From assembly GCA_030017955.1 (NCBI GenBank), contig JASEGR010000030.1, positions 1-33,477 of the forward strand: DNA of 33,477 bases, given 5' to 3'. Positions 1 through 32,509 of this stretch are shown here, in pieces. The notes beneath the pieces are model-generated. The model did not search any database. It worked only from the letters and a program-made list of their open reading frames with translations, and was not told where the DNA came from. The DNA comes from Candidatus Eisenbacteria bacterium (GTDB taxonomy: Bacteria > Eisenbacteria > RBG-16-71-46 > JASEGR01). The translations under genes were made by a program, and so were the position numbers. How positions within the stretch are numbered: the stretch's first letter is position 1; the number at the start of each line of letters is the position of its first letter.

Positions 1-48
1 GCACCGTTCAGCGGCAATGTGAATGTCAACTTACTTATGTTACGGTGC
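1..48. repeat. 7-bp inverted repeat downstream of the GyrA-CTD gene
   Basis: GCACCGT at 1-7 and its perfect complement ACGGTGC at 42-48 flank a 34-base loop just after the stop codon (50-52) of the minus-strand GyrA-type gene. There is no clear T-run, so this is at best a weak transcription-termination structure. The right arm with the stop codon also resembles the GGGACGGCACACTA motif found at two other gene ends in this window, so it may instead be a diverged copy of that repeat. Confidence 0.25.
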
Positions 49-49
49 A

Positions 50-982
50 CTAGCCGGTTTTCTCTGCGACCACCACTTTGTCGCCTTCGTCAAGCCTCAT
101 TATTCTTACGCCGGTAGAAGCCCTTCCTGTTTCCCGTATGTCCTGGGCCTTGATCACAATGGCCTTCCCATGGGAGCTTCCGACAAGGAGCTCGTCCTCG
201 CCACCGGCGCCCACCAATGCGACGACGGCTCCTGTCTTTTCGATTGACTTTATGTTTGTTACTCCCTGCCCGCCTCTTCCACTTGACCGGTACTTGGACA
301 TCGGAGTCCTCTTCCCGAATCCGCCCTCAGTCACAGTGACGGCAGAGCTCTGATCGTTGCCGACCAGGAATCCTGCAACTCCATCCCCCTCCTTGAGTCT
401 CATGGCTTTCACTCCCGATGCCCCACGACCCGTGCTTCTAACGAGAGTCTCGTCGAAGCGGATCGCCCTTCCGCTCTTCGTTGCAACCAGAATCGATGAT
501 TTTCCGTCAGAGATTCTGGCTCCGGAAAGCTCGTCACCCTCATGGATTGTCACGGCCTTGATACCACCCGCTCTCGGTCTTGCAAACTTGGAGAGCTCAG
601 TTTTCTTGATCATACCCTGCTTTGTCAGCATGACAACTTCCAGTCCCTCGGGGAAACTCGAGACCGAAACGACTGCCGCAACTCGCTCTTCATTTTCGAG
701 CTCCATGAGCTTGGAAACGAGTATTCCTTTTGCATATCTTCCAAGTTCCGGAATATCGCTCACCTTCAGGATGTGACATTTGCCGAGTGTTGTGAAGCAG
801 AGAAGATGATCGTCTTCTGTTGCAGGGAGGAGATAGGAGACAACATCATCCTCTTCAATCTTAAGTGCTATTACTCCCTTGCCTCCCCTTCTCTGAGCGC
901 CGAATTCCTCCAGGGACATTCTCTTGAGTTTCCCCATCTTAGTCAGAGCAAGAAGAAAGGTTTTGGTTTCTACAGCTTCCAT
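50..982 (-). CDS. Stand-alone DNA gyrase subunit A C-terminal beta-pinwheel protein
   Basis: The 310-residue product consists only of the DNA-wrapping C-terminal domain of GyrA; the breakage-reunion domain and catalytic tyrosine are absent. The canonical GyrA-box QRRGGKG lies at residues 30-36, in the first blade. Five further blade motifs follow (for example GRYAKG, RPRAGG, STGRGASG, SSGRGGQG, ETGRASTG), giving six blades. It is not an obvious truncation of a longer local gene. A consensus Shine-Dalgarno AAAGGAGGT sits about 7 bases before the ATG at 982, and the upstream hydrolase ends 24 bases away, so the two are probably co-transcribed. By family knowledge this domain binds and bends DNA around itself. 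Whether this one assists a gyrase encoded elsewhere or acts as an independent DNA-bending protein is unknown. Confidence 0.9.
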   Translation of the reverse strand: MEAVETKTFLLALTKMGKLKRMSLEEFGAQRRGGKGVIALKIEEDDVVSYLLPATEDDHLLCFTTLGKCHILKVSDIPELGRYAKGILVSKLMELENEERVAAVVSVSSFPEGLEVVMLTKQGMIKKTELSKFARPRAGGIKAVTIHEGDELSGARISDGKSSILVATKSGRAIRFDETLVRSTGRGASGVKAMRLKEGDGVAGFLVGNDQSSAVTVTEGGFGKRTPMSKYRSSGRGGQGVTNIKSIEKTGAVVALVGAGGEDELLVGSSHGKAIVIKAQDIRETGRASTGVRIMRLDEGDKVVVAEKTG

Positions 983-1006
983 CCTGACACCTCCTTTGCT
1001 TGGCTG

Positions 1007-1768
1007 CTATTCCGGCTGCCGTATCTGCTCGAAAATATGCACCGGAACCTGTGTTACGAGGGACCTAAACTTATTTGCATCTTCTCCAGAACCGAGGATG
1101 CTTCCGTAGTGCATGGGTACTGCTATCTGAGGCTTGATCATCTCCGCCGCCCGGGCCGCCTCTTCGGCAGTCATCACATAAGTGCCGGAGACGGGGAGAA
1201 GAGCGATGTCTGCCTTTATGTTCTTCATCTCGGGAATCAAATCCGTATCCCCGGCAAAGTAAACTCTCACGCCCCCCGGAACCGTCACGATAAAGCCGAT
1301 CCATCCCTTACTCTTCGGGTGGAATTCCTTGCCTATGTTATAGGCGGGGACAGCTTCCACCTGCACCGTGCCAAGATTCAGTTTTTCACCCGGCCTCATG
1401 GTTCTCACATTTCCGGAGAACTTCTTGGCGCAATCGGGAGTAGTTACGATGATTGTGTCCTTCTTTTGAATCTTCTTGACGTCCTCCGGCGAGCAGTGGT
1501 CGTGGTGGTCGTGAGAAATCAGAATGATGTCGGCAGGTTCGAGGCCGGCTTTCAACTTGAACGGGTCAAAGTAGATCACCTTGTCAGCGGCCACTTTGAA
1601 AGTATCATGCCCGTACCATGTCATCTTGCGGGCTACATTCATTGCATCCAAGTGCGGCCTCCTTCCTTCTTTCTGCGCTTTCCCAACTTGAGCCAACCCA
1701 GCTGCAGTCGAAACAAGAGCCGTGAAAAGGAACAGAAACATGCACGAAGGAACCCATCTCCTCATCAT
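1007..1768 (-). CDS. Exported metallo-beta-lactamase-fold metal-dependent hydrolase (UPF0173/UlaG-like)
   Basis: 253 residues. The N-terminus has a twin-Arg charged start, a hydrophobic stretch at about 9-23 and a GLA-Q style cleavage site near 26, so secretion by Sec is likely. The metallo-beta-lactamase fold is shown by HDHHDH at residues 86-91 (metal ligands H86, H88, D90, H91), the GDTD motif at 173-176 and MHYG with H220. This pattern fits the UPF0173/UlaG-like group; the substrate is unknown. Two adjacent ATGs (1768 and 1765) are possible starts, and GGAGG about 8 bases upstream of the first supports 1768. It lies 24 bases upstream of the GyrA-CTD gene and 43 bases downstream of a small membrane-protein gene, all on one strand. 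An exported hydrolase and a DNA-wrapping domain have no evident functional link. Confidence 0.85.
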   Translation of the reverse strand: MMRRWVPSCMFLFLFTALVSTAAGLAQVGKAQKEGRRPHLDAMNVARKMTWYGHDTFKVAADKVIYFDPFKLKAGLEPADIILISHDHHDHCSPEDVKKIQKKDTIIVTTPDCAKKFSGNVRTMRPGEKLNLGTVQVEAVPAYNIGKEFHPKSKGWIGFIVTVPGGVRVYFAGDTDLIPEMKNIKADIALLPVSGTYVMTAEEAARAAEMIKPQIAVPMHYGSILGSGEDANKFRSLVTQVPVHIFEQIRQPE

Positions 1769-13899: not shown

Positions 13900-14757
13900 T
13901 TAGTATTCCTGTGGCAACTTGGAAAGTTCGGCGAATGAGAAGACCGGCCCGTCCACGCAGACGTACTTGGGGCCGATGTTGCAGCGGCCGCACATCCCAA
14001 CGCCGCACTTCATTCGCATTTCCAAAGACGTGTAGATCTGATCCGGCTGCCATCCCAGTTTGTCCATCACCGGCAGCGTGAATTTTATCATGATTGGCGG
14101 TCCGCATATGACCGCAATTGCGTTTTCACGCGAAGGTTTCACCTGCTCAACTATTGTCGGCACAAATCCTTCCACGCCGGACCACCCTTCATCACCTCTA
14201 TCCACGGTGAGGTGGAGCGTAAGTTCGGGCGACTTTCCCCATTCCGCAAGCTCCGGTTTGTACAGCAGCGCCCCCGGCGAACGTGCACCATAGACGACGG
14301 TAAGATTTCCGAAGTCTTCGCGATTCGCCAGGACATATTTGACGAGGGAACGCTGCGTTGTGAAGGCAAAGCCGCCGCCTATGACGACCACGTTCTTGCC
14401 GCGCATCTCATCCAGCGGCCAGGAGTTGCCGAGGGGGCCGCGGAGACCGACCGGAGCGCCAGGGCCGAGCCGATGAAGCGCCCGCGTCACCCTGCCGCCC
14501 GTGTTGAAGACGGTGAACAGGAGTTCTTCGCCTTCGCTGGGGGAGGAGGCGATGCCGATGGGACATTCTCCATAGCCATAGAGCGAGAGCTCCGCAAACT
14601 GGCCGGGAAGGTAGTCCCACGATGAGCCGCGTCTGAGCTTTAGATAGAAACTTTTTATGTCAGCCGCACCCGTCTCGACCACGACGCGTTCCAGCGTTGC
14701 TGGCACAGGCACCATGGGTGTCTTGGCCAGGGATTTGTTCATAGTGTATTGAGCCAT
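13900..14757 (-). CDS. flxA: FlxA-like FAD/NAD(P)-binding oxidoreductase subunit with [2Fe-2S] cluster
   Basis: 285 residues from ATG 14757, one base after the flxB stop; an earlier in-frame start at 14826 lies deep inside flxB and is rejected. The family is the ferredoxin-NADP reductase-like group containing PyrK, AsrB and sulfhydrogenase gamma. The FAD site is LPGQFAELS (50-58) and ECPIGIASSP (64-73). The NAD(P) site begins IGGGFAF (126-132). A C-terminal cysteine set C251, C256, C259 and C267 (KCGVGMCGRC...C) fits a dihydroorotate-dehydrogenase-B type [2Fe-2S] cluster. In the FlxABCD-HdrABC complex of Desulfovibrio this subunit handles NAD(H). Here it is the last of the tightly packed complex genes before the 145-bp repeat element. 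Confidence 0.88.
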   Translation of the reverse strand: MAQYTMNKSLAKTPMVPVPATLERVVVETGAADIKSFYLKLRRGSSWDYLPGQFAELSLYGYGECPIGIASSPSEGEELLFTVFNTGGRVTRALHRLGPGAPVGLRGPLGNSWPLDEMRGKNVVVIGGGFAFTTQRSLVKYVLANREDFGNLTVVYGARSPGALLYKPELAEWGKSPELTLHLTVDRGDEGWSGVEGFVPTIVEQVKPSRENAIAVICGPPIMIKFTLPVMDKLGWQPDQIYTSLEMRMKCGVGMCGRCNIGPKYVCVDGPVFSFAELSKLPQEY

Positions 14758-14758
14758 G

Positions 14759-15775
14759 TTATTTCGCCGCCGCGGCGCGCGCCACTGCTTCCCGGATATC
14801 AACGTTGACCGGGCAGGCGACGACACACCGGCCGCATCCTACGCACAGGTTCTCGCCCCAATTCTCATGAAAGTAGCAGAATTTGTGAAGAACGCGCTGG
14901 CGGTAACGCTGACCTTTGCGATCGCGAGGGTTATGGCCCGATGCATGCAAAGTGAAGAGAGGGACAGTGCATGCGTCCCAGAAACGGCACCGTGTCCCTC
15001 TGCCTTGCTTGCCTTCGTCCATGACATCAAAGCAGTGACACGACGGACAAACAAACGTGCAGGCCATGCAGCTTATGCAGCCGGCTGCGACTTCGTCCCA
15101 TACACTCGCACCGAAGTTCTCGTAGAGTGTTGCACGAACTTTATTCAAGTCCCAGGGCGGCTTCATCGACGCTGCGACCTTTCCGTGGGCGGTTTTCGCT
15201 GCCGAGACTTCGTCAGCGGATCCTGCGTTGACTTTGAGTTCTGTCAGAAATGCCTTGCCGCGCGGCGATACTGCTTCGTACACTGTCCGTCCGCCCGAGT
15301 GGAAAAGCATTATGTCTGCCCCGGTCGGGTCAGCCGGCCCACCGCCGACAGCGCCGCAGAAACAAGTAGGAGCGAGGTTCTCACAGGCGCTCACCACTAG
15401 AATTGTATTTTTCCGCCGGGCCTCATAGCCGGTGTCGTGAAAACCGCGTCCTCCCGCGTAGATCTTGTCGATCAGCGTAATCGCGCGGGCATCACAAGGC
15501 CGGACCGAGAAGAGAGCGCGCTTGACGGCAGGCGGGACCACCGCCCCGCCTTCGCCTGCATTGTAATCAAGCAGCTTTTCAAGTTGAGGTAAGACGAACG
15601 CCTTGGCGCTCAGCGCGGTCAGCAAGCAGCCGCTGACATCCGCTGCCCCGCCCTCCCAGTAGCCAAAGGTCCAACCTCCAGCCGAACGCACCGGGACGAA
15701 GACCTCGTAGCCGGCGGTTTTCGCCTGCGCCATGAGCGCTGCAACATCAGTGTGGTGTTCTCCGCCTTTGGCCAT
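14759..15775 (-). CDS. flxB: FlxB-like iron-sulfur subunit (AsrA/sulfhydrogenase beta family)
   Basis: 338 residues. Two [4Fe-4S] motifs are visible: C233/236/239/243 in CISCMACTFVCP, followed by extra cysteines in SCHCFD, and C311/314/317/321 in CVGCGRCVVACP. The N-terminal two thirds contain RPCDARAI and a Cys-rich CFCGAVGGGP segment typical of AsrA/HydB-type subunits that pass electrons from the flavin subunit. The ATG at 15775 follows the flxC stop with no intervening base, and flxA starts one base after its own stop, so the subunits are probably translationally coupled. Assignment as FlxB is based on adjacency to FlxA and family resemblance; B and C are similar in cluster layout. Confidence 0.82.
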   Translation of the reverse strand: MAKGGEHHTDVAALMAQAKTAGYEVFVPVRSAGGWTFGYWEGGAADVSGCLLTALSAKAFVLPQLEKLLDYNAGEGGAVVPPAVKRALFSVRPCDARAITLIDKIYAGGRGFHDTGYEARRKNTILVVSACENLAPTCFCGAVGGGPADPTGADIMLFHSGGRTVYEAVSPRGKAFLTELKVNAGSADEVSAAKTAHGKVAASMKPPWDLNKVRATLYENFGASVWDEVAAGCISCMACTFVCPSCHCFDVMDEGKQGRGTRCRFWDACTVPLFTLHASGHNPRDRKGQRYRQRVLHKFCYFHENWGENLCVGCGRCVVACPVNVDIREAVARAAAAK

Positions 15776-16771
15776 CTACATGAACCCCTCGTTTGGGTCG
15801 TCAGGTTTGTATGTTGACAAGGGCGGCTTGGCGTCAAGTGCCGCATCCACTTCGTAGTCGAACTTCTCTACGACTTCCTTCACCAGCTTGTCGGATAGAA
15901 CGCGGACATGAATGTCCATAGGACAGGCGCGCTCGCACGCGCCGCATTCCACGCAGCGTCCGGCAGTGTGGAAACAGCGGACGATGTGGAACGCCAGGAT
16001 ATCTTCCTCGGCCGTGGCCGGCCCGATCCACGATGGATTTCGCTGGTCTGCGAAGCACTCTTCGCAGTAGCAGACAGGGCAGGCCTGACGACAGGCATAA
16101 CAGCGGATACAGCGGGAAAATTCCTCTCTGAGCCAATTCCAGCGCTCATCCGGTGCACGGCTTTCTTGTTCCCGGACGCGGCCAAAGCGATCGGACGCTT
16201 TGCCAGGTATCGCAGCCGTCCCCAACGTCGCGTCGGCTGAGATGATTGAGCGCCGGGTGCATACGGCGCAGATGTTTTCAACGAAGTCGGCGGCGGGAAG
16301 CTGAACTTCACTACCCGCGGTCGTCAGGACGATCACCTTATCGCCATCTATCCGTGCGTTCCGGACAGAGTAAACTCCAACCTTGTCCAGGACCTTCTTC
16401 CGGTCTATTAGAGGAACCGCACAGTTGACACCAATGACGTAGATGTCGGCGCGGGTAAACTGGTTCTCTTTCATGTAGGCGACAAGGGCACGCTCATCGC
16501 AGGGTGAGACAACGACCGCGACCTTCTTGGTCTTGGCCACGTCATAATCGCGCCGGTTGCGGCGGTCACGGATGTACTCCTGGACATATCGGGCCAATGC
16601 TGGAGTGCACAGCCGGTTCCAGGTGAGGCGGCTCGTGTCCGCCGGATCTCTAATGAACGCCGGCCGAACGGTCAGGGGCATTGTTCCGGCTGCGAAACCG
16701 ACCACGACTTCAGCTTCTCCCGACTCCAACAGCTCACGAGCTTTGGCACAGATCTGTTCTTCAAGCGTCAT
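15776..16771 (-). CDS. flxC: FlxC-like 4Fe-4S dicluster subunit (coenzyme F420 hydrogenase beta-like)
   Basis: 331 residues. It carries SPCDERALVAYM (89-100), a segment shared with FrhB/HydB-like electron-transfer subunits. Two ferredoxin-type motifs follow: C221/224/227/231 in CIRCYACRQACP, then VCYCEEC, and C273/276/279/283 in CVECGACERACP. It lies between the MvhD-like flxD and flxB, the position of FlxC in FlxABCD-HdrABC clusters, and would relay electrons between the NAD(H) module and HdrA. Its ATG overlaps the stop of a 29-codon frame as ATGA. GGAGG about 11 bases upstream lies inside that small frame. Confidence 0.82.
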   Translation of the reverse strand: MTLEEQICAKARELLESGEAEVVVGFAAGTMPLTVRPAFIRDPADTSRLTWNRLCTPALARYVQEYIRDRRNRRDYDVAKTKKVAVVVSPCDERALVAYMKENQFTRADIYVIGVNCAVPLIDRKKVLDKVGVYSVRNARIDGDKVIVLTTAGSEVQLPAADFVENICAVCTRRSIISADATLGTAAIPGKASDRFGRVREQESRAPDERWNWLREEFSRCIRCYACRQACPVCYCEECFADQRNPSWIGPATAEEDILAFHIVRCFHTAGRCVECGACERACPMDIHVRVLSDKLVKEVVEKFDYEVDAALDAKPPLSTYKPDDPNEGFM

Positions 16772-16857
16772 TGCGCGTGAAACCTCCGCCTGACCTCATC
16801 AAGTCTCGCCCGGACGCCGGTGATGTAGCAATCAACTGCTGATTTTGGATCTCTCAT
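16768..16857 (-). CDS. 29-residue ORF tightly packed between flxD and flxC
   Basis: A minus-strand frame begins with ATG one base after the flxD stop and ends with TGA overlapping the flxC ATG (ATGA). The peptide begins MRDPKSAVDC and ends RRRFHAQ; it is basic, with a likely amphipathic helix in its second half (ARLDEVRRR). I recognise no family. The exact packing on both sides matches how real genes are arranged in this operon and argues for translation, if only for coupling flxD to flxC. Chance is still possible for an 87-base gap. Confidence 0.45.
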   Translation of the reverse strand: MRDPKSAVDCYITGVRARLDEVRRRFHAQ

Positions 16858-16858
16858 G

Positions 16859-17314
16859 TCAGAACTCTTTCTCCCCCGCATATTCCTTTACGAGACGCAG
16901 GGTTGGTCCCAGTGTTCGCACTCGCTCTACCACTGTCTTCACGACCTCGGCGAACCTGGCTCCCTCGCTGGCAGATACCCAGGAAAAGTTGACTCTGCCC
17001 GGCTCGATGCCGCAGTACTCCAGATAATCTCCCAACAGTGTGAACCGGCGCCTCGCCGCATAGTTACCGGCGATGTAATGACAATCGCCGGGGTGACAGC
17101 CGGAGACCAGGACACCGTCCCATCCTTCCATGAGCGCCCGGATGATATAGAGAGGATTCACTCTGGCTGAGCAGGGGACTTTGATGACACGGATATTGGG
17201 CGGATACTGTATCCGCGAAACGCCTGCCAGGTCTGCTCCGGCATAGCTGCACCATGTGCACAAGACCGCCAGAATTCTGGGCTCAAAGCCGCTATTTTTG
17301 TTTTGCTCTGTCAT
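16859..17314 (-). CDS. flxD: FlxD / MvhD-like [2Fe-2S] hydrogenase iron-sulfur (delta) subunit
   Basis: 151 residues, the usual size. The family hallmarks are all present: C19 and C22 in LCTWCSYAGAD, C48 in VPCSARV, and C73 and C78 in SGCHPGDCHY. MvhD transfers electrons from the electron-donor module (hydrogenase, or FlxABC here) to HdrA. The gene follows hdrA by six bases, as expected for a subunit docking on HdrA. The C-terminus is Glu/Lys rich. No hydrogenase large subunit is encoded nearby, which favours the Flx (NADH-linked) version of the complex over the Mvh version. Confidence 0.92.
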   Translation of the reverse strand: MTEQNKNSGFEPRILAVLCTWCSYAGADLAGVSRIQYPPNIRVIKVPCSARVNPLYIIRALMEGWDGVLVSGCHPGDCHYIAGNYAARRRFTLLGDYLEYCGIEPGRVNFSWVSASEGARFAEVVKTVVERVRTLGPTLRLVKEYAGEKEF

Positions 17315-17320
17315 CTCTGA

Positions 17321-20300
17321 TTACAACGCGCTTATAGCATCAAGGAGCTGCTCATGCGTTACACCGGCGATGTCCACGGCAGCGGACCAGCACGCCGCAG
17401 CGCACGAGCCGCACCCTTTGCACAATCCCGCGTTCACTTCGGCTACCATCTTTATCTTATTGACTTCGATCGCGCCGTAGGGACACACGGACTCGCAGGT
17501 CCCGCAGGCGATGCACCGCTTCTCATTGACTACGGCGACACGGCCTTCTGCTCTTATGGTTGGCTTTGCGAGAATGGTGGATGCTCTTGCCGCCGCTGCC
17601 TGAGCTTGCGCTATTGATTCTTCTATAGTTTTGGGCGCGTGCGCGAGGCCGCAAACAAAGACGCCCTCGGTGGCAAAGTCCACCGGACGAAGCTTCATGT
17701 GCGCCTCAAGGAAGAAGCCATCGGCTGTCAGCGGAACCTTCAGCATTTCCGCAAGCTCCTTGTTCGCCGCGACGTCGGGCCACGTTCCTTCGGCCAGCGC
17801 GACCAGGTCAACCTCCATCTCTACTTCTTCTCCCACGATGATGTCATGCCATTTCACACTGGCCTTGTCGCCCTTGGGCACCACGACGGGTTTGTTGTCC
17901 GGCTCAAAACGCGCGAAGAAGATACCTTTCTCGCGGGCCTCACGATAGTAGTCCTCGGCCAGGCCATAGGTCCTCAAATCACGATAGAACATATAAATGT
18001 TCGCGTCCGGATTGAGCTCTTTAAGCTTGAGTGCGTTCTTCACCGCCTCGCTGCAGCATATGCGGGAGCAGTAGAGGTGGCTTTCGTCCCGGGAGCCAAC
18101 GCACTGGATCATGGCGATGTCCGTACTGCCGAACGGGACTTTTCCTTCGCCCAGGGATTGCTCAAGGTCGCGCTGGGTCATGACGCGGGCCGTCTCGCCA
18201 AGGGCAAACTCTTTGTGGTCGCCCATGTTTGCACCGGTGGCGACGATGACTACGCCGTGCTCGATTCTGTTCTCGGCGCCGGATGCATCAACTATCGTCG
18301 AAACATAACTTCCGACGAAGCCGTTAAGCGTCTTGATGCGTGCACCGGTGAAAACCTTTATCTTGTCGTGGCGGCGGACACGGTCAGCCAGGTCAGCAAG
18401 AAAAGGTGCGATCTCCTGGCCGTCAAGCGTGTAACGGATATGGCGCAAGTTTCCGCCTAGCTCGGCTTCTTTTTCGACAACGTAGGTCTGGAATCCCTGC
18501 TCGGCGAGGCCAATCGCCGCCGTCAAGCCGGCAACGCCTCCTCCAATCACGAGAGCGGTTTGCGTTACGGGAAGCTCAATGTCCGCGAGCGGCGAAAGGT
18601 TGACTGCGCGGGCTACCGCCATCCGCACAAGTTCCTTTGCCTTGGCGGTTGCTTCGGCCGGCTGCCTCATGTGCACCCATGAGCAATGTTCGCGGATATT
18701 CGCCATCTCAAACAGGTACGGGTTGAGGCCGGCTTCCCGCAGCGTCGCCCGGAACAACGGCTCGTGGGTGCGCGGAGTGCAGGAGGCCACGACGACGCGA
18801 TTCAGTCCGTGCTCAGCTATCTTCTCGGCGATCAGCTTCTGCGTATCCGAAGAGCAGGTGAACAGATTCCGCTCGACGTAAGCTACCCATGGGAGCGATG
18901 CTGCATATTCCACAACCCCCGGGACATCTACAACGCCGCCAATATTTATGCCGCAGTGACAAATGAAGGCACCGACGCGCGGGGGTTCCCCGGCGATGTT
19001 CCGTTCGGCGGGGAAGACCGCGGCCGTGGTTTCGGTCCAACGCGCTGGAGCGAGGACCCCTGCGGCCTGTGCCACTGCGGCCGAGGCTTCCATAACCGAT
19101 TCCGGGATATCTTTTGGCCCGGCGGCGGCGCCCGCAGCAAAGACACCGGGCCGGGATGTATGCGTCGGGTTGAAGGCCGGCGCGGCAACAAAGTCATACT
19201 TGTCAACTTCCAGGCCCAGCCTTCCCAGCATTGCCTTGGTGTCCTTGTCCACGGTAAGGCCGACGGACAGGACCACCATGTCAAACTCTTCGCGGCTGAA
19301 GACTCCGCCTTCGTCCTCGTATTTCAAGGCGAGTTTTCCATTCTCGCGTTCTACACTGTCAACACGGCTCCGGATAAACCGGACACCGTATTCCCGTTCG
19401 GCGCGCTCGATGTAACGATCGAACTCCTTGCCGAACGAACGCATATCCATGAAGAAGATCGTGGGCTCGACGCCGGCAGCGTGCTCCCGGGCGATGACAG
19501 CCTGTTTTGTCGCGTACATACAGCAGACCGATGAACAGTAGCCGCGGCCCACGGTGGTATCGCGGGACCCAATACATTGCAGCCAGGCGACCTTCACCGG
19601 GTCCTTTCCGTCGGACAAGCGTTTCAGATGCCCGCCGAAAGGCCCTGATGCCGAGAGCAGTCTTTCAAATTCTATGGAAGTGACCACATCCGGGAGGCGG
19701 CCCCAGCCGTATTCACTCTTGAGGCGCGCATCAAACTCTTCAAAGCCGGGCGCGAGGATAACTGCGCCCACTTTTATTTCATCCAATCTCGCGGTCTGGA
19801 AGTGGCGGATGGCATCCGGGCGGCAGGCCCTGACGCATTCGAGACATTCCGAACATACGCCGCAGGAAAGGCATCGCTTCGCCTCGGCAATTGCCTGCTC
19901 TTTGTCAAGACCGAGCTCCACTTCCTCAAAGCTGTTTCCACGTTCGGTAACCGCAAGCTCTGCCATGTGTGCGCGCGGAGACGGACTTGCCTTGTCTTTA
20001 GGCACGTCCGCGGGCTTGACCACTTCCAATGCGGCAGGCAACGGGACAGGGAAGTCGCTGCAATTCAAGTACGCTGCAATTCCGCGGGCAGCGCGGCGTC
20101 CCTGTGCCATCGCCTCGGTAACCATTCCAGGGCCGGATACCATGTCCCCGCCGGCGAAGACACCCGCCCGGCCCGTCATGCCGGTTTGCTCGTCAACTTC
20201 TACAGTCTTCCACTTGGTGACGCAGATGCCCGCCTGGCCTTCCAGCGGCGTTATCGCCGGGGCCTGGCTTATCGCAGGTATCACCATGTCCACTGCGACG

Positions 20301-21766
20301 TCGAACTTATCGCCGGGAATTGGAACGGGACGGCGCCGGCCGCTTGCATCCGGCTCGCCGAGTTCCATTCGCTGGAGCCGCATCCCGGTCACGCGGTTTT
20401 CCTTGCCCAGGATTTCATCGGGTGCAACCAACAATTCCAATCCGACACCTTCGCGCCGGGCCTCTTCGATTTCTACGTTATCCGCGGGCATCTCGGTACG
20501 GGTGCGCCGGTAGTAGATTGTGACCTCCGCACCCAGGCGGCGTGCCGTGCGGGCAGCGTCAATGGCCGCGTTGCCGCCGCCTATCACGGCGACCTTCCTA
20601 CCGGCCCAGACCTTTCCCGTCAGCGCGAACTCGCGGAGAAATTCAACTGCGCCAACGACACCTTCGAGACCCTCACCGCCGCAGCCGAGGGTTAGACTCT
20701 TGTGGGCGCCGATGCCGAGGAAGATCGCCTTGTAGCCATCCTGGAAAAGGTCATCTATCGCGAAGCTCTTTCCGAGCTCGGCGTTGCAGCGAAAGCGGAC
20801 GCCCAGCTTTTCCAGGAAGCCGGCCTCGCGGTCAATCACCGCTTGCGGCAAGCGATAACGCGGAATGCCGACACGCAACATCCCGCCGGGGAACGGCAAC
20901 GCCTCAAAAACATCAACGTCGTAGCCGGCCAATGCCAGGTCGTGCGCGCAGGTCAATCCCGCAGGCCCTGCGCCGACAACGGCGACAGACGTATTCTTTT
21001 TTTCAATGTTGTAGTCGGTGACAAAAGAGTAATCCGGCTCGTTCGCCGCTTCCCAATCGGCGACGAAACGTTTGAGAGACCGGATGGAGATCGCAGAATC
21101 CACCTCTCCACGAACGCAGGCCTTCTCGCATGGATGGTGGCAGACGCGGCCGCAAATCCCTGGAAGCGGGTTCTGTTTTCGAATGAGCGCCAGCGCCTCC
21201 TTGAACTTGCCTTCGCCGATGAGGGCAATGTAGCCCTGCGCCGCCTGGTCGATCGGACATGCGTCGCGGCATGGTGCTTTTCCGCGCTTGTGGAGGGCAA
21301 AGACATTGGGGATGGCCTGAGCGTAGGGGCGATAGGCTGCCCGCCGCTTGACCAGTCCTACTTCATACTCGTCCGGGAATTGGACCGGGCAGGCCTGCGC
21401 GCAATCTGTGCAGCCGGTGCACATCTCTTCGTCAACATACCGCGGCCTCCGGCGGACATGAGCGGTGAAGTTTCCCGGTTCGCCTTCCAGCTTCTCCAGG
21501 TCGGCGAGCGTGAGGATTTCAATGTTTTCGTGGCGGCCCACTTCAACCAGCTTCGGCGCCAGGATGCACATCGAGCAGTCGTTGGTGGGGAAGGTCTTGT
21601 CAAGTTGAGCCATCGTGCCGCCGATAGCGGCGCCCTTCTCAACAAGGTAAACCTTGAAGCCGGCGTTTGCGAGGTCCAGTGCGGCCTGGGCGCCTGCAAC
21701 ACCGCCACCCACGACCATGGCCGCGCCAATGACGTCATTCTGTTTTTTTGCCTTGACCATTGTCAT
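17321..21766 (-). CDS. hdrA: Giant composite HdrA: HdrA with inserted GltD/NfnB-like NADPH dehydrogenase, followed by a second HdrA
   Basis: 1481 residues from ATG 21766, which overlaps the hdrB stop as TGAGATG; a TTG at 21787 is possible. Ordinary HdrA is about 650 residues. Order: HdrA-type FAD domain (GGGVAG at 20) with C64/C67 and a [4Fe-4S] motif C116/119/122/126. Then comes a GltD-type module, about 158-570, with Cys-rich entry C166/170/205/209/213/217, FAD site GAGPAG (265-270) and NADPH site GGGNAA (396) with YRRTR (419-423). The first HdrA resumes at the Cys cluster 632-648 (six Cys) and the CIGSRD/CSSVCC segment (731-749). A second HdrA copy starts with CHCG (936-939) and continues with GGGVAG (1075), C1222/1233/1237/1238 and two ferredoxin motifs, C1418/1421/1424/1428 and C1449/1452/1455/1459. 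HdrA bifurcates electrons at FAD; this one could also exchange with NADPH. Confidence 0.93.
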   Translation of the reverse strand: MTMVKAKKQNDVIGAAMVVGGGVAGAQAALDLANAGFKVYLVEKGAAIGGTMAQLDKTFPTNDCSMCILAPKLVEVGRHENIEILTLADLEKLEGEPGNFTAHVRRRPRYVDEEMCTGCTDCAQACPVQFPDEYEVGLVKRRAAYRPYAQAIPNVFALHKRGKAPCRDACPIDQAAQGYIALIGEGKFKEALALIRKQNPLPGICGRVCHHPCEKACVRGEVDSAISIRSLKRFVADWEAANEPDYSFVTDYNIEKKNTSVAVVGAGPAGLTCAHDLALAGYDVDVFEALPFPGGMLRVGIPRYRLPQAVIDREAGFLEKLGVRFRCNAELGKSFAIDDLFQDGYKAIFLGIGAHKSLTLGCGGEGLEGVVGAVEFLREFALTGKVWAGRKVAVIGGGNAAIDAARTARRLGAEVTIYYRRTRTEMPADNVEIEEARREGVGLELLVAPDEILGKENRVTGMRLQRMELGEPDASGRRRPVPIPGDKFDVAVDMVIPAISQAPAITPLEGQAGICVTKWKTVEVDEQTGMTGRAGVFAGGDMVSGPGMVTEAMAQGRRAARGIAAYLNCSDFPVPLPAALEVVKPADVPKDKASPSPRAHMAELAVTERGNSFEEVELGLDKEQAIAEAKRCLSCGVCSECLECVRACRPDAIRHFQTARLDEIKVGAVILAPGFEEFDARLKSEYGWGRLPDVVTSIEFERLLSASGPFGGHLKRLSDGKDPVKVAWLQCIGSRDTTVGRGYCSSVCCMYATKQAVIAREHAAGVEPTIFFMDMRSFGKEFDRYIERAEREYGVRFIRSRVDSVERENGKLALKYEDEGGVFSREEFDMVVLSVGLTVDKDTKAMLGRLGLEVDKYDFVAAPAFNPTHTSRPGVFAAGAAAGPKDIPESVMEASAAVAQAAGVLAPARWTETTAAVFPAERNIAGEPPRVGAFICHCGINIGGVVDVPGVVEYAASLPWVAYVERNLFTCSSDTQKLIAEKIAEHGLNRVVVASCTPRTHEPLFRATLREAGLNPYLFEMANIREHCSWVHMRQPAEATAKAKELVRMAVARAVNLSPLADIELPVTQTALVIGGGVAGLTAAIGLAEQGFQTYVVEKEAELGGNLRHIRYTLDGQEIAPFLADLADRVRRHDKIKVFTGARIKTLNGFVGSYVSTIVDASGAENRIEHGVVIVATGANMGDHKEFALGETARVMTQRDLEQSLGEGKVPFGSTDIAMIQCVGSRDESHLYCSRICCSEAVKNALKLKELNPDANIYMFYRDLRTYGLAEDYYREAREKGIFFARFEPDNKPVVVPKGDKASVKWHDIIVGEEVEMEVDLVALAEGTWPDVAANKELAEMLKVPLTADGFFLEAHMKLRPVDFATEGVFVCGLAHAPKTIEESIAQAQAAAARASTILAKPTIRAEGRVAVVNEKRCIACGTCESVCPYGAIEVNKIKMVAEVNAGLCKGCGSCAAACWSAAVDIAGVTHEQLLDAISAL

Positions 21767-21767
21767 C

Positions 21768-22667
21768 TCACACTGGCTGATCTGCAAAGGCAGCGATAAG
21801 CTTCTCGCACCTGTTCTTTGCTAGCTTAAGCTCCATATCTTTTGCCGAGCGGCCCAAAGCCAGCCCCAAAACCTGCGGCAGGAACAAGATTGGGATTCCC
21901 AATTCCTGTGCCATTTGCCCGGCGACCTTGCTCTGGTTGTCGTCGTACATCACGGCGCAGAATGGACAGACAAGGACCACCGCATCGGGTGCCGCTGTCT
22001 TGATGCGTGTCAGTTTCTCGCCGGCAAGTGTGAGGGCAAGCGCCGCGTCTATGCCCAACACGGCCCCGCCGCAGCACTTCTTGTATTCAGAATAGTCTAT
22101 TACTTCGGCGCCCGTCGCTCGCACCAGGTCTCCGAGCGAATGCGGTGCCTCCGGGTCCTCCGGTCCTTCAAATGCCCGTGAGGGCTTGAGGTAATGACAG
22201 CCGTAGTGAACAGCGAAGCGAAAACCCTCAAGCGGCCTGACAACTTTCTCTTTTATCGCCGGAATGCCGATGTCGTCGAAGAGCCACCGGGCGAAATGGC
22301 GGACACGCCGCGGCTCGACTATCTTCCGGCCTATCGCGGCGAGTCTCGCATTGACTTTTTCCCGCAGCGCCTCATCCGTGCGGAGCTCGTGTGAAGTCTC
22401 AGCGAGGACCGACGCACAACTGGAGCAGAGTGCCAGGATGTCCAGTCCTGCTTCTTCGGCAACCGCGAGGTTCCGGGCGGCAAGCAGCAGCGTATGCTCG
22501 CGGCTCTCAGACTTGATAGGGAAACCGCAGCAGGCGAAATCCTGTAAAGGCGTAAGCTCGCAGCCGAAGAGCCGCGCAATTTCCACCGCGGCCTTCTCGT
22601 ACTGCCGCGCGCGCAGCGGAATCGTGCAGCCGAGGAATAGAGCCAGGCTGCGTTCCGTGCCGCTCAT
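21768..22667 (-). CDS. hdrB: Heterodisulfide reductase subunit B (CCG domain protein)
   Basis: 299 residues with two complete CCG (CX31-39CCX35-36CXXC-type) motifs: C14, C46-C47, C81 and C84, then C157, C198-C199, C234 and C237. In methanogens these bind the two noncubane [4Fe-4S] clusters that cleave a disulfide. Retention of both sets indicates an active disulfide-reducing site. The natural substrate in bacteria lacking CoM-S-S-CoB is unsettled (DsrC or other thiols have been proposed). The lipoyl carrier in this operon is another candidate. Its ATG overlaps the hdrC stop (ATGA), and its own stop overlaps the hdrA start. Confidence 0.94.
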   Translation of the reverse strand: MSGTERSLALFLGCTIPLRARQYEKAAVEIARLFGCELTPLQDFACCGFPIKSESREHTLLLAARNLAVAEEAGLDILALCSSCASVLAETSHELRTDEALREKVNARLAAIGRKIVEPRRVRHFARWLFDDIGIPAIKEKVVRPLEGFRFAVHYGCHYLKPSRAFEGPEDPEAPHSLGDLVRATGAEVIDYSEYKKCCGGAVLGIDAALALTLAGEKLTRIKTAAPDAVVLVCPFCAVMYDDNQSKVAGQMAQELGIPILFLPQVLGLALGRSAKDMELKLAKNRCEKLIAAFADQPV

Positions 22668-23128
22668 TTCGTATCTTCCAGCAACCGTGCCACCTCATCG
22701 CAGGTTGTCTTGAGTTCGGCGAGCCCCATCTTGGCGCGCTTCTTGTTGTCAAACTCTTCCAGCTCGTAGAGCCGGCCGAACTTCTTGAGGAGGTCCAATT
22801 GCATCACATACGCCGGATGCAGTTTGCCTTCCCGGGCGGCGATGTTTTTCACGGCAGTTATGATTTCGGCGAAGGACACGCCCTGGGGACACCTTTCCTC
22901 GCAGGAGTAGCACGTGGAACAGAGCCAGATGAAGTCGCTCTGGAGTACACGCTCGCGCATTCCAAGAAGAATCATGCGGATGATTTTGCGCGGGTTGTAG
23001 CGCTCGTCGATTGCGCGGACTGGGCAGGCCGCGGTGCACGTGCCACAGGCGAAGCAAACCTTGACGGCTTCGCCGCCTGGCTCCCGGGCCACCTCGTATT
23101 TGAAGTTACGGTCTAAGGCGGACAACAT
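22664..23128 (-). CDS. hdrC: Heterodisulfide reductase subunit C
   Basis: 154 residues. Two cubane [4Fe-4S] motifs, C25/28/31/35 (CFACGTCTAACP) and C70/73/76/80 (CSTCYSCEERCP), carry electrons from HdrA to HdrB. Size and spacing are normal. It is the first gene of the operon. AGGAAGG lies immediately before the ATG at 23128, rather close. A TTG at the next codon would have better spacing, so the exact start may be shifted by one residue. A candidate promoter with an extended -10 lies 47-76 bases upstream. Confidence 0.93.
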   Translation of the reverse strand: MLSALDRNFKYEVAREPGGEAVKVCFACGTCTAACPVRAIDERYNPRKIIRMILLGMRERVLQSDFIWLCSTCYSCEERCPQGVSFAEIITAVKNIAAREGKLHPAYVMQLDLLKKFGRLYELEEFDNKKRAKMGLAELKTTCDEVARLLEDTK

Positions 23129-27361: not shown

Positions 27362-27599
27362 TTACACCGGGCTGAGCTCCGGGGCACTCAGGACTTCCCC
27401 CAGATTCTTAATGGCATCCTCGTAGTCAGGCGGAGTAGCAATCTCCGGCACGATCTGGATGTATCGTATGATGTCATTCTTGTCCACGATGAGCACCGCT
27501 CTTGGAAGGAGATTCAATTCCTTTATCTGGAGGCCATAGTTCTTGCCGAACGAAGAGAATCTGTAGTCTGAATGAACCAAAATGCTTTTGATAGTGATA
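27362..27599 (-). pseudogene. tpx: C-terminal remnant of thiol peroxidase (Tpx)
   Basis: The frame ending at 27362 encodes about 78 residues matching the last half of Tpx: HSDYRFSSFGKNYGLQIKEL, then LPRAVLIVDKND, IVPEIATPPDYEDAI. Both catalytic cysteines lie upstream in the family and are missing. No ATG or GTG start lies at the fragment's beginning, and the frame differs from the rubredoxin gene that abuts it. It is therefore read as a decayed gene whose front half was replaced by the rubredoxin segment. Confidence 0.75.
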
Positions 27600-27761
27600 T
27601 CATTCCTCCAATTCGAACAAATCCTTGCCAACCCCGCATTCCGGGCATACCCAATCGTCCGGCAACTCCTGAAAGGATGTGCCCGCGGCAATTCCGTTTT
27701 CAGGGTCGCCGAGTTCGGGATCATAGATGTACCCGCATACTGTGCAGCGATACTTCTCCAT
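27600..27761 (-). CDS. Rubredoxin
   Basis: A complete 53-residue rubredoxin. It begins [15 protein letters not shown] and has the second knuckle [14 protein letters not shown]; the iron ligands are C6, C9, C39 and C42. Conserved Y11, Y13, the GD.E.GI.AGT turn and W37 are present. AAGGA lies about 8 bases before the ATG at 27761. Rubredoxins are small one-electron carriers, often donors to peroxide- and superoxide-reducing enzymes in anaerobes. The neighbouring thiol-peroxidase remnant fits an oxygen-defence context. The gene ends exactly where the tpx fragment begins and is transcribed convergently with the phosphatase gene. Confidence 0.95.
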
Positions 27762-28299
27762 GGTTCTGTCCTTTCTTTATTCGCCACGGTACACCAGCGT
27801 CTTCGGTCCGATTGTAAGTTGCCGCAACTCTCATCCGTCAAGAGCGAATTCGGGGACATCACTTAATTCGGGAACCTGGGGACATAACACTTATCTGTTG
27901 GCAGGTCTCCTATTCTGGGGACACAACGCTTATCGGGCCGTATTCCGCACAGATCCGACAGGGCGTCCGGGGACGTTCCCGATTTCTGTCTCCCAGGCAA
28001 CGTGAGCGATCTTTCCAATACAAAGTCGAAATCTCCAGTTTCACTCTAGGAAAGGGCTAAGAATTTTGTTGCATCGCTCGCTGTTCTGTTGTAGTTTTTC
28101 TCATACGAGGGCTAATGCCCGTTCCAGCCGAAATAAGACCTTTGCGCATCCATTAGTCCCAATCTCTAGGTTCGTGCCCCATTAGATCAAGTATTGTGAC
28201 GCGCATGAGTTCGAGAGAAACTAAGAAACATCGCCGTGGTCTGGCGTTCATAATGAATTCTTTTGTCTTGTTGTTATTAGTTCAAGTATGAGGTGATTG
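27762..28299. other. Gene-poor gap between rubredoxin and the cmr operon
   Basis: About 540 bases with no convincing gene. The first ~90 bases are the rubredoxin upstream region. Positions 27852-27980 hold GGGGAC-anchored repeats, listed separately. The remaining ~300 bases are noticeably AT-richer and must contain the promoter of cmr1. I see no clear -35/-10 pair there, only the ribosome site AGGTGA four bases before the cmr1 ATG at 28300. No CRISPR repeats or tRNA were found in it. Confidence 0.6.
27852..27980. repeat. Cluster of GGGGAC-anchored repeats
   Basis: Four related strings occur within 130 bases: GGGGACATCACTTA (27852-27865), GGGGACATAACACTTAT (27878-27894), GGGGACACAACGCTTAT (27917-27933) and GGGGACGTTCCC (27969-27980). 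The middle two differ at only two positions. They share the GGGGAC core with the GGGACGGCACACTA copies at 1801 and 8693. Such tandem short palindrome-related units are typical of repeats mobilised by REP-associated tyrosine (Y1) transposases, but no transposase gene is in the window. Confidence 0.6.
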
Positions 28300-29499
28300 A
28301 TGCACAGCATTGGGTTTGAGTGCGAAGTTGTGACGCCCATGTTCCTCGGCGGAGCAGATCACGAGGCAGAATTGCGCGCGCCTTCCATCAAAGCAGCGAT
28401 GAGATGGTGGTTCCGGGCGATGATGGGGGGAGGCTTGTTCGACAAGCTGGGAAAAGGAAAAAATTCGTTTCTGAGTGGGGTTCGAGAGGCCGAGTCAAAG
28501 ACATTTGGAAGCACTGATGCCGTAAGTCCTTTCCGGCTTTCGATCGTCGATAGTGGGTTATCCAAGGACGATTGCAAGCGATGGTGTTACAGAATCGACG
28601 AACCCGCTGAAAGAGGCTTATGTTACTTAGGATATGGATTGTCCGACCGCAACTTTGTCATTCCTGGGAAGAAGTTTACCCTCGAAGTCACGCTTCGGAC
28701 GACTGACTCACAGAAGGAGAATTGGATTCTCGGGTCATTATGGATGCTTGCGAACTTTGGGACCTTAGGTGCCCGGTCCTCCCGCGGGTTTGGCTGCTTT
28801 CAAATTAGTTGCGCGAACGACGATCTGGGAGAACGATTTCCCAAAGTCACATCAATTGCTGATCTCAAGGAAGGATTCAAGCGAACGAGGAGACTATTCT
28901 CTTTGCCGGAATCGTCTTCAAACGACGATTTGCCGCCGTTTTCAATAGTGCATCCTAGAGCTTGGAGATGCCTCGTTCTAAACGAGCCCAAAGGGAATCC
29001 ACTACCTGCACTCAATAGTGCGGGAATAGCTCTGAGAAAATTCAGAGAGGCCCCCGACCCATCGAATGAGTTCGAGAGGAAAATACCAACAAAATCTGGC
29101 AACATCCGAGTTATCCGAGGGCAGCACTCCCGGGAATATAAGAATGTTGTGAACTTTGGGATCAGTAGAGGACTACTTCTACCAGAAACATCCATCTTTG
29201 GGCTTCCTCATCCATTTCAACTTTCGTCCCCCGGGAAGAAGGTAACGATGAAGAAGGTTACGATAGTGTCGGAAACACGGCAGCGGCGTAAGTCGCCGCT
29301 TTTCATTCACGTTTACAAGTGGAAACAGACATACGTGAGTTACCAAGCTTTCAAGGCAGAGTTCGTGGATGGGAAGATTAAGTTCTATGATCCAAAGGTT
29401 CCAAACCAGGCTGAGACCGTTGGCGGAACATTGCCCTTCAACGAACTGGATTCGTTCATTGGGCAAAACTCGGCTAATGCGGAGCTGCTATGGGAGTAG
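28300..29499 (+). CDS. cmr1: Cmr1 (Cas7-family RAMP) of a type III-B CRISPR system
   Basis: 399 residues from ATG 28300, with AGGTGA four bases upstream; a TTG at 28297 is rejected. The Cmr1 signature at the N-terminus is VTPMFLGGAD, then ELRAPSIKAAMRWWFRA (to about 40). The glycine-rich RAMP loop LGARSSRGFG lies near 156-165. Cmr1 caps the crRNA-bearing Cmr backbone near the target 3' end. The length fits Cmr1, which has two RAMP folds. It is the first gene of the cmr operon and overlaps cas10 by ten bases. Sampled lines in this operon count to about 50% G+C, lower than the Hdr-Flx operon, consistent with horizontal acquisition. Confidence 0.9.
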   Translation: MHSIGFECEVVTPMFLGGADHEAELRAPSIKAAMRWWFRAMMGGGLFDKLGKGKNSFLSGVREAESKTFGSTDAVSPFRLSIVDSGLSKDDCKRWCYRIDEPAERGLCYLGYGLSDRNFVIPGKKFTLEVTLRTTDSQKENWILGSLWMLANFGTLGARSSRGFGCFQISCANDDLGERFPKVTSIADLKEGFKRTRRLFSLPESSSNDDLPPFSIVHPRAWRCLVLNEPKGNPLPALNSAGIALRKFREAPDPSNEFERKIPTKSGNIRVIRGQHSREYKNVVNFGISRGLLLPETSIFGLPHPFQLSSPGKKVTMKKVTIVSETRQRRKSPLFIHVYKWKQTYVSYQAFKAEFVDGKIKFYDPKVPNQAETVGGTLPFNELDSFIGQNSANAELLWE

Positions 29500-31262
29500 A
29501 AAACAAGGGTGCTAGCTGTCTTCTCGTCTGCGAAATCGGTCCGATAGCCGATTTCATTCGCCACAGTCGAAAGACGAAAGACTATTGGTCAGCATCATTT
29601 CTATTTTCCTATCTGATGTCGGAGGTCGCACGGGCAATTCTCAATGAAGGCGGAAAGATATATCGACCGGACGTGAGCAAGAATCCTCTTGTGACTCGAC
29701 GGGCAAAAGCAAAAGCTGGCACCGTACCCGATCAGATTTTTGCGATCGTCAGAAATGAATCAAAAGACAAGGTGAAACAGGCAATCGAGAAAGCAATGCA
29801 CGATGCTCTCGAAGACTTGGCGACGCGCATCGATAGAATCAAGGAGGACAGGAGGAAGTCCAACGGGAACATAGACAGAGAAGAAGTCCGCGACTACATC
29901 AATTTCTCTTATATATTCCACGGGCATGTCGGTGAATTTCCAACGTATGGCCAAAACCAGGAAGCCGAGAAGAAGATCAAAATGCGGTCGTTCATTCGGG
30001 TGTTCGACCAGAGGCCAGGTGGCGAACTGAAGAAGTGGGAAAAATGCAATCTCTGCGGCGACAGGAAAGCTGTCTTCTCAACCCCGGTGAGCAAGGATGG
30101 AGATCTATACGACGATGAGCGCATTTGCAGCGTGTGTCTCTTCAAACGATTCTTGCCTGAGGCTCTCAAAGATTTGGCAGAAACGCCTTCCTTTGATTCA
30201 ACATCTGACATAGCGGCGGTCCCCTTTCACGAGCTCCGCATAAGGCTTAGCAGTTCATTCCTTTCTCTTCCTGAGATAGCGAAGTTGGCATCGGAATATG
30301 ACGCCCTCCAAAGGGCGTGTAAAGAAACGGGAGAGGAATGGGGGGGTGGGCCGGGTGAAATCTGCGGCCGCTGCCTGTTCGATGACGGGCTCGATCAAGT
30401 CAAACCATTTCGTGAGGCCTTCAAGAAACTTGAGGATCGAATGGTCGAGGTCGAAGGGAGCTATTCTCCATTTGTATGGCTTACGCGTCCATTTTACTCC
30501 ATCGTCTACATGGATGGGGACAATCTGCGCAGAATCTTCGAAAACAACTCAGACGAGTTTCCCAAATATGTGCCTGCGGTGTCCGGGATACTATCGCATT
30601 TTGCTTCTTTGGTTCCCGATGTTGTTCACCGACATCATGGGCAGCTCATCTACGTTGGCGGAGACGACGTGAATTTCGTGATTCATCCGGAGTATCTGCT
30701 CGAATGCATCGCTGAATTGACCTCGACGTACAATCGTCTATTTGCCGAGAATGGTTTGACGAAGGGGTACGCCGCCAGTCTCACGCTCTCTGCCGGGGCG
30801 GTGGTGTGTTACCACAAGTATCCGCTTTCAGAGACCATTCGAAGGGCATGCCAAGTGATGACAGACCGGGCGAAGAGTCAAACAAACAAGAACGCCACTG
30901 CGATTCAGCTTATCAAAGGTCATACGGAAACGCTGACATTTACACTCTCTAACCACAAGCTGCCCGATCTACTCGAACTCCTTCAGAAATTCATTGACCG
31001 TCGAATTTCACGTACCACTCCGCATCGCATTGCTGCGGAGAAAGAGCTGCTGGTGGGGCTTATTCGAACAGATGAGGTTGTATTCGAGAGCTACATTGCA
31101 TCTATCCTCAGCGGGACGAGGGATTCTGATCGAAGAAACGGAGACGCGGAAAGGAATGCGAAGTTGATTTCGTCGTTTGCCACGGGTGGGACAGACGAGG
31201 AAAAGGTGGACACAATGATCGACTGTCTTCTTTACGCGCGATTTCTGACAGGAGACCGATAG
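29490..31262 (+). CDS. cas10: Cas10/Cmr2, type III-B large subunit lacking the HD nuclease domain
   Basis: 590 residues, shorter than typical Cmr2 (about 800-900). The protein starts at the first palm region (IGPIADFIRHSRKTKDYW at 13-30). No N-terminal HD domain with its His-Asp pair is present, so single-stranded DNA cleavage is not expected. The cyclase palm is intact: G390-G391-D392-D393 in YVGGDDVNF, and a preceding MDGDNLR segment near 345. A zinc-knuckle-like set C186/C189 and C213/C216 is present, with a further CxxC at 292/295. By family knowledge the GGDD site makes cyclic oligoadenylates on target RNA binding and activates CARF-type effectors. No such effector gene lies in the window. 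GGAG lies 5 bases before its ATG. Confidence 0.92.
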   Translation: MGVENKGASCLLVCEIGPIADFIRHSRKTKDYWSASFLFSYLMSEVARAILNEGGKIYRPDVSKNPLVTRRAKAKAGTVPDQIFAIVRNESKDKVKQAIEKAMHDALEDLATRIDRIKEDRRKSNGNIDREEVRDYINFSYIFHGHVGEFPTYGQNQEAEKKIKMRSFIRVFDQRPGGELKKWEKCNLCGDRKAVFSTPVSKDGDLYDDERICSVCLFKRFLPEALKDLAETPSFDSTSDIAAVPFHELRIRLSSSFLSLPEIAKLASEYDALQRACKETGEEWGGGPGEICGRCLFDDGLDQVKPFREAFKKLEDRMVEVEGSYSPFVWLTRPFYSIVYMDGDNLRRIFENNSDEFPKYVPAVSGILSHFASLVPDVVHRHHGQLIYVGGDDVNFVIHPEYLLECIAELTSTYNRLFAENGLTKGYAASLTLSAGAVVCYHKYPLSETIRRACQVMTDRAKSQTNKNATAIQLIKGHTETLTFTLSNHKLPDLLELLQKFIDRRISRTTPHRIAAEKELLVGLIRTDEVVFESYIASILSGTRDSDRRNGDAERNAKLISSFATGGTDEEKVDTMIDCLLYARFLTGDR

Positions 31263-31263
31263 G

Positions 31264-32508
31264 ATGCCTGAGTACATTGCAGAGCCGTATGATGTGCTCT
31301 ATTTCAGGGGCAACAAATCGTTCCATTTCGGCGCGTGGTATTCAGAAGGAATATTCCCGCCGGTGCCGTCAACCTTCCAAGGGTTTGTGAGATCGAAATT
31401 GCTTCTTGACGCTGGCAAGATTGATGCTTCAGGGCAAGCGACCGCCGATGCCAGCGCGCTCGTTGGAAACGACGGTACGATGGGAATCGATGTTTCAGGC
31501 CCATTTCTTTGTGACACAGAGACCAGAGAACTCTACTTCAAGAGGCCTGCAGATGTGATGAAAGAAAGGAAAGAGGACACGTCATACAGTTCTGTCCTGC
31601 GTGACGCCAAGGATGCCGAGCCAGTTGACAGTGACCTTGACTTCGGCATAGTGACCATTTCAGTCTCGAACGAGAAACTGGAGCCTCCAGAGTTCATAAG
31701 CCTGAGTGAACTGGCTCGGTACAGAACGGAGTTGACAAACCTAAGCTTGGCTGCGAAGGATTTGGTCTTCACGGAAGACCGGGTAGGCATCGGATTGAAA
31801 TGGGCCAAAGACACAGCAAAGAGAAGGTCTGTCGAACCGGGAAGGTTCTATGTAACGCCGTACAAGAGACTCAATGAGAAGATCGCCTTGTGGTTTTGCG
31901 TATCCGGTGAAGGCAAAGCCGTGCCTGAAAACGGAGCGCTTAAGCTGGGGAGCGAATCTCATCTTGTGTTCATTAAGGGGCAAACAGCGAGTGATGAAAG
32001 CTTGATCGAGCAGACTCTTGAGAAGTCACGTGACAACCTGGTGGAAAAGATCCAAGAAACGAAGACGTTCAGGCTGCTTCTTCTGCAGCCTGGTGTGTTT
32101 GAACAGGGGTGGTTCCCTCTCAAGTACACGAGCGAAAACGGACGAATAGTTGCGACTGAGCCTGGGGCGAATGTGAAGCTCCAACTTCTCTCCGCTTGTG
32201 TCGGAGCGCCAATCACAATAAGCGGGTACAGCTATGTGAGCAACAGAGGGACGACCCGTCAAGACAACGTTAAACTCAAGCCCTCTGTCAGGGCGGTCCC
32301 AGCGGGCTCAGTTTATCTATTCAAGATTCTCGAAGATGCAACAAGCGAAACCATTGAAGGACTTGTGAAGGCGCTGGACAACCAGAAGTACCCGCAGAAG
32401 ATCTCGAATGAGCCCTACTCCTACTCAAGGATGGGCTTTAACCACGTAATTTTGGCGTGCGGACCTGCATTGACAAACACCAAGCCGTTATCGCGAAAGG
32501 AGTATTGA
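31264..32508 (+). CDS. cmr3: Cmr3 (Cas5-like RAMP) of type III-B
   Basis: 414 residues. The Cmr3 N-terminal signature reads YDVLYFRGNKSFHFG, then FPPVPSTFQGFVRSKLL (about 9-47), matching the family pattern (D.l.FR....f......fPP.PST..G..Rs). Cmr3 pairs with Cas10 and binds the crRNA 5' tag. A late glycine-rich segment (VGAPITISGYS) may belong to the second RAMP half. It starts one base after the cas10 stop and ends one base before cmr4, so it is part of a tightly coupled operon. Nothing looks truncated. Confidence 0.9.
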   Translation: MPEYIAEPYDVLYFRGNKSFHFGAWYSEGIFPPVPSTFQGFVRSKLLLDAGKIDASGQATADASALVGNDGTMGIDVSGPFLCDTETRELYFKRPADVMKERKEDTSYSSVLRDAKDAEPVDSDLDFGIVTISVSNEKLEPPEFISLSELARYRTELTNLSLAAKDLVFTEDRVGIGLKWAKDTAKRRSVEPGRFYVTPYKRLNEKIALWFCVSGEGKAVPENGALKLGSESHLVFIKGQTASDESLIEQTLEKSRDNLVEKIQETKTFRLLLLQPGVFEQGWFPLKYTSENGRIVATEPGANVKLQLLSACVGAPITISGYSYVSNRGTTRQDNVKLKPSVRAVPAGSVYLFKILEDATSETIEGLVKALDNQKYPQKISNEPYSYSRMGFNHVILACGPALTNTKPLSRKEY

Positions 32509-32509
32509 G

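Follow-up and report, generated by a model that had tools for sequence, protein, structure and literature searches.

A free-standing gene for the gyrase A C-terminal domain, a putative nucleoid-type protein, in Candidatus Eisenbacteria

We find that a Candidatus Eisenbacteria genome carries an intact gene for the C-terminal domain (CTD) of GyrA alone, at a locus separate from a complete gyrase. The gene belongs to a clade of old origin, present in three families of the class, and its product keeps the gyrase CTD fold and the DNA-contact arginines tested in Salmonella. We regard this orphan as, rather probably, a diverged gyrase-CTD paralogue retained as a DNA-bending, nucleoid-type protein; its expression, DNA bending and nucleoid role are predicted from sequence.

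Results and discussion

A gyrase domain with a gene of its own

The window, i.e. the whole stretch of DNA analyzed here (33,477 nucleotides), is the entire contig C30 of the host genome. The features of the locus are as follows:

50..982, reverse strand: free-standing GyrA C-terminal domain gene (the orphan), 310 aa, six pinwheel blades (PF03989 x6, E 2e-68)
875..895, reverse strand: GyrA-box QRRGGKG, residues 30-36 of the window protein
983..1000, reverse strand: ribosome-binding site AAAGGAGGTG, a few bases 5' of the orphan's ATG
1007..1768, reverse strand: gene for a metal-dependent hydrolase of metallo-beta-lactamase fold (PF13483, E 2.7e-28)

The reading frame is intact from its ATG, in the start context AAAGGAGGTGTCAGG-ATG, to a TAG stop codon. 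A first-pass annotation had described a stand-alone gene encoding a full six-blade wheel with an intact GyrA-box, preceded by its own ribosome site and a hydrolase gene, and each of these features is confirmed. Specifically, Pfam detects six DNA_gyraseA_C stretches and no other domain, and the six-blade pinwheel with a GyrA-box is a feature of GyrA that the window protein shares. The NCBIfam gyrA models cover it at GyrA positions 493-796 of 798 only, far below their whole-protein cut-off. The breakage-reunion domain (PF00521) with its catalytic tyrosine is found neither in the window protein by Pfam nor in frame upstream. As such, the catalytic gyrase domains, which the annotation had reported as absent, are indeed missing from the window, but the genome encodes them in full elsewhere. 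The protein ends in VVVAEKTG, without an acidic tail, and has a pI of 9.3.

The hydrolase gene ends 24 bases before the orphan on the same strand, and the two genes are probably co-transcribed. No counterpart of the hydrolase was found beside the other four orphans described below when neighborhoods were compared. Just past the orphan stop, at the contig end (window 1-50), lies an imperfect inverted repeat (GCACCGT...ACGGTGC) that may be a terminator or an assembly-breaking repeat.

The rest of the contig encodes unrelated functions. These include a heterodisulfide-reductase-like electron-transfer cluster (13900-23128; FlpD, a 1488-aa pyridine-nucleotide/FAD/4Fe-4S protein, and CCG-domain and ferredoxin subunits), a block of citrate synthase, aconitase and isocitrate dehydrogenase genes, and the first genes of a type III-B (Cmr) CRISPR effector operon (28297-33403; RAMP, Cmr2/Cas10, Cmr3 and RAMP) that reaches the contig end. 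At 27362-27862, an unrelated frame is fused to the C-terminal half of a peroxiredoxin-like protein, which looks like a recombination junction or a decayed gene, and a rubredoxin-like peptide is seemingly encoded in another frame at ~27600-27765.

The host retains a complete gyrase

The host genome (3.1 Mb, 97% complete, 248 contigs) encodes a single GyrA on contig C9 (829 aa, six blades, box QHRGGKG) and a single GyrB on the same contig; no ParC/ParE or second type IIA pair was found in it. The orphan is ~38% identical to the CTD of this GyrA. The suggestion that the orphan complements a tail-less GyrA fails because the host genome has complete GyrA and GyrB, and full-length GyrAs with intact boxes and open frames also accompany the orphans of G001 (835 aa), G005 (841 aa) and G013 (822 aa). 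In G009, an assembly that is 88% complete, neither GyrA nor GyrB was found. The genome also holds two genes for HU-type proteins, and the orphan is not a replacement for a missing HU. An origin as a ParC remnant was likewise rejected: the window protein scores 36.9 bits against the NCBIfam parC Gneg model vs 280-296 against gyrA, its TM-score to Escherichia coli ParC is 0.57, and all five orphans have a gyrase-type box.

Free-standing CTD genes recur in three families

We searched 47 genomes of the class for free-standing CTD genes and found them in 5, i.e. the host (family f1), G001 (f2), and G005, G009 and G013 (f6). Within these three families every genome examined has one (5/5), and none was detected in the other 42 genomes of the class; 33 of these have a GyrA-type match only and 9 have no match at the sensitivity used, which makes absence less certain in the latter. 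The box follows the pattern QxRGGKG in 5/5 orphans, and a purine-rich ribosome site lies directly 5' of the CTD start in all four of the window gene's counterparts. Truncation or misassembly, the outcome that the first-pass annotation had said would undo its proposal, is excluded as a general explanation because G013, a single-contig genome, has both an orphan (at 1.67 Mb) and a separate full gyrA (at 2.32 Mb), 0.65 Mb apart.

In a search of 385 genomes with a profile of the orphans, the five reach 472-538 bits, whereas the full GyrAs that follow among the matches listed reach at most 334, a gap that is partly by construction given that the profile was built from those five sequences. The listing covers ~150 matches, and rarer or more distant stand-alone genes are possible elsewhere. 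Several other stand-alone candidates were dropped, e.g. a shortened gyrA reading frame starting within the breakage domain (G042), gyrA genes cut by contig ends (G139, G216 and G121; the profile listing has three shorter frames of this kind), and a frameshifted gyrA (L098). Viral contigs yielded 62 relatives and no free-standing gene, the short ones being cut by contig ends.

Gene order around the orphan is common within f6, where genes for a deoxyhypusine synthase, an arginase-family enzyme and a methyltransferase lie downstream. No shared neighborhood was found between f1, f2 and f6, and in no case seen does an orphan adjoin gyrA or gyrB. Separately, a contig end of G001 (L136; G001:C26, bases 1-500) holds another GyrA/ParC N-terminal fragment, which differs from the genome's own gyrA and may stem from contamination or from a second topoisomerase.

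The orphans share an old origin

In a tree of 67 CTD rows, the five orphans are monophyletic (bootstrap/SH-aLRT 100/97) and separate from every GyrA CTD, and a tree of 111 CTDs recovers them as one group with an SH-aLRT of 99. The clade survives removal of its longest branch and, without the f6 copies, the window orphan pairs with that of G001 at 100. The host's own GyrA CTD groups with the GyrAs of the class, and a tree with the window orphan as sister to that GyrA is rejected (AU p 0.0012), which excludes recent copying from the host gyrA. By contrast, a single clade of orphans and class GyrAs is not rejected (AU p 0.12), a value that leaves a duplication within the class GyrA and an older origin or transfer both compatible with the data.

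In a tree of GyrA breakage domains, the four orphan hosts with a gyrA group together (82/40), and f1 groups with f6 (97/88). The simplest account of this grouping is a single, old gain in the ancestor of the hosts with vertical descent thereafter, with caution for the long orphan branch, which marks sequences evolving faster than the GyrA CTDs. Among the f6 orphans, dN/dS values of ~0.05-0.18, taken where synonymous sites are near saturation, indicate that these copies are under purifying selection.

DNA-contact residues and predicted structure

The window protein aligns without gaps to the Salmonella GyrA CTD, in which six arginines (R612, R667, R712, R716, R766 and R817) were tested by mutation for DNA binding (PMC7210945). 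All six have an arginine counterpart in the window protein (R82, R137, R182, R186, R236 and R287, respectively), and Salmonella R665 is also conserved, as R135. In the f6 copies, T or K takes the place of the blade-4 arginine R186, and with this replacement DNA contacts may be shifted in some orphans.

The AlphaFold2 model of the window protein is a wheel (mean pLDDT 91.8) that superposes on GyrA CTDs. The best structural match is the E. coli CTD with DNA wrapped around it (9gbv, TM 0.93), followed by the CTD of Borrelia, which is flat (0.89). A control model, for the CTD of a normal GyrA, has the same structural pattern; the model thus confirms the fold only, because the control behaves alike, and a closed wheel was discarded as an orphan-specific trait.

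Possible roles of the orphan

We propose that the orphan is an old paralogue of the GyrA CTD with a gene of its own, whose six-blade wheel would hold duplex DNA along its rim, with one arginine per blade. The bend would be imposed by the GyrA-box in blade 1. It is known that the box sets the DNA bend on the CTD, that a CTD lacking the box fails to bend DNA, and that an acidic tail hinders wrapping by the isolated CTD (PMC3510516). Because the orphan lacks both a cleavage domain and an acidic tail, it may act as a stand-alone architectural, nucleoid-associated protein alongside intact gyrase and HU, one that would bend DNA and probably constrain positive writhe.

Several lines of evidence are consistent with such a role. 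The contact arginines of the window protein, the intact box, the missing acidic tail and the basic pI all point to DNA binding of this kind, and the well-supported clade, the presence of the gene in every genome examined of the three families and the low f6 dN/dS suggest retention for a function. There is also a precedent by analogy in Borrelia Gac, a free CTD that binds DNA and represses ospC. Against this, the two HU genes leave no vacant nucleoid role visible, the orphan branch is long, and the R186 position is substituted in f6. A broader proposition, that in this lineage gyrase wrapping was handed to a nucleoid protein of its own, inherited vertically and constraining positive supercoils, which would make the orphans a new architectural family derived from a topoisomerase domain, is one that we put forward tentatively, and it may well not hold.

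The main rival is regulation of gyrase in trans, where the free wheel would compete with or supplement the CTDs of gyrase, the sole type IIA topoisomerase of the host, and shift the balance of supercoiling vs relaxation/decatenation. Such a switch could be useful in the orphan genomes, where no complete type IIA enzyme other than gyrase was found, and the wheel retains the contacts used within gyrase. Yet class members without an orphan have the same single-gyrase make-up, no orphan neighbors a gyrase gene, and no gyrase-binding feature was identified in it; we consider this reading unlikely and prefer the nucleoid protein.

It is more doubtful still that the orphan is a locus-specific transcription regulator rather than a general architectural protein. 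Gac, which prefers certain DNA and represses a gene, offers a model for this, and the window copy is probably co-transcribed with the hydrolase gene, but the neighbors vary between families and do not point to a fixed target. A decaying leftover from a gyrA duplication would fit a patchy and fast-evolving gene, and is very improbable in view of the intact ORFs and ribosome sites in five genomes and three families, the conserved box and the constraint within f6. Finally, an artefact, i.e. a gyrA cut short by a contig boundary or a contig from a contaminant, is scarcely credible: the stop codon is only 49 bases from the edge of a contig in a 248-contig assembly, but that edge lies beyond the stop of a complete gene, other genes lie on the start side, the G+C content (0.53) is similar to that of neighboring genes, and the same arrangement recurs in relatives, including the one-contig genome.

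Comparison with known systems

If the nucleoid reading is correct, the orphan would clearly exemplify a topoisomerase domain turned independent chromosome protein, possibly one that constrains positive writhe. With its own gene across three families, its function could be tested by simple deletion and expression with gyrase left untouched. We found no report of stand-alone GyrA CTD genes in the open-access literature searched, though one may exist elsewhere.

Relative to the CTD of GyrA, the orphan has the same six blades, GyrA-box, rim arginines and fold, and differs in lacking the breakage-reunion domain, the catalytic tyrosine and the acidic tail, and in having its own gene and clade. The CTD of ParC, in topoisomerase IV, has a related pinwheel fold, but the orphans keep a gyrase-type box.

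The closest known system is Gac of Borrelia burgdorferi, a free GyrA CTD produced from an internal promoter and start within gyrA, which is a DNA-binding repressor of ospC and a suspected nucleoid protein (PMC10127594). According to its authors, separate Gac production may or may not be unique to that species, and the overlap of Gac with the essential gyrA makes simple deletion impossible (PMC10127594). Like Gac, the orphan is a six-blade GyrA CTD on its own in a cell with full GyrA. Unlike Gac, which has the sequence of gyrA and starts inside it, the orphan sits at a separate locus (C30 vs gyrA on C9), does not adjoin gyrA, and has diverged well away from the host CTD. From its conserved contact residues, we predict for the orphan a Gac-type binding and bending of DNA, with a nucleoid or regulatory role; at most it would work like Gac, and it is not Gac, since both origin and locus differ.
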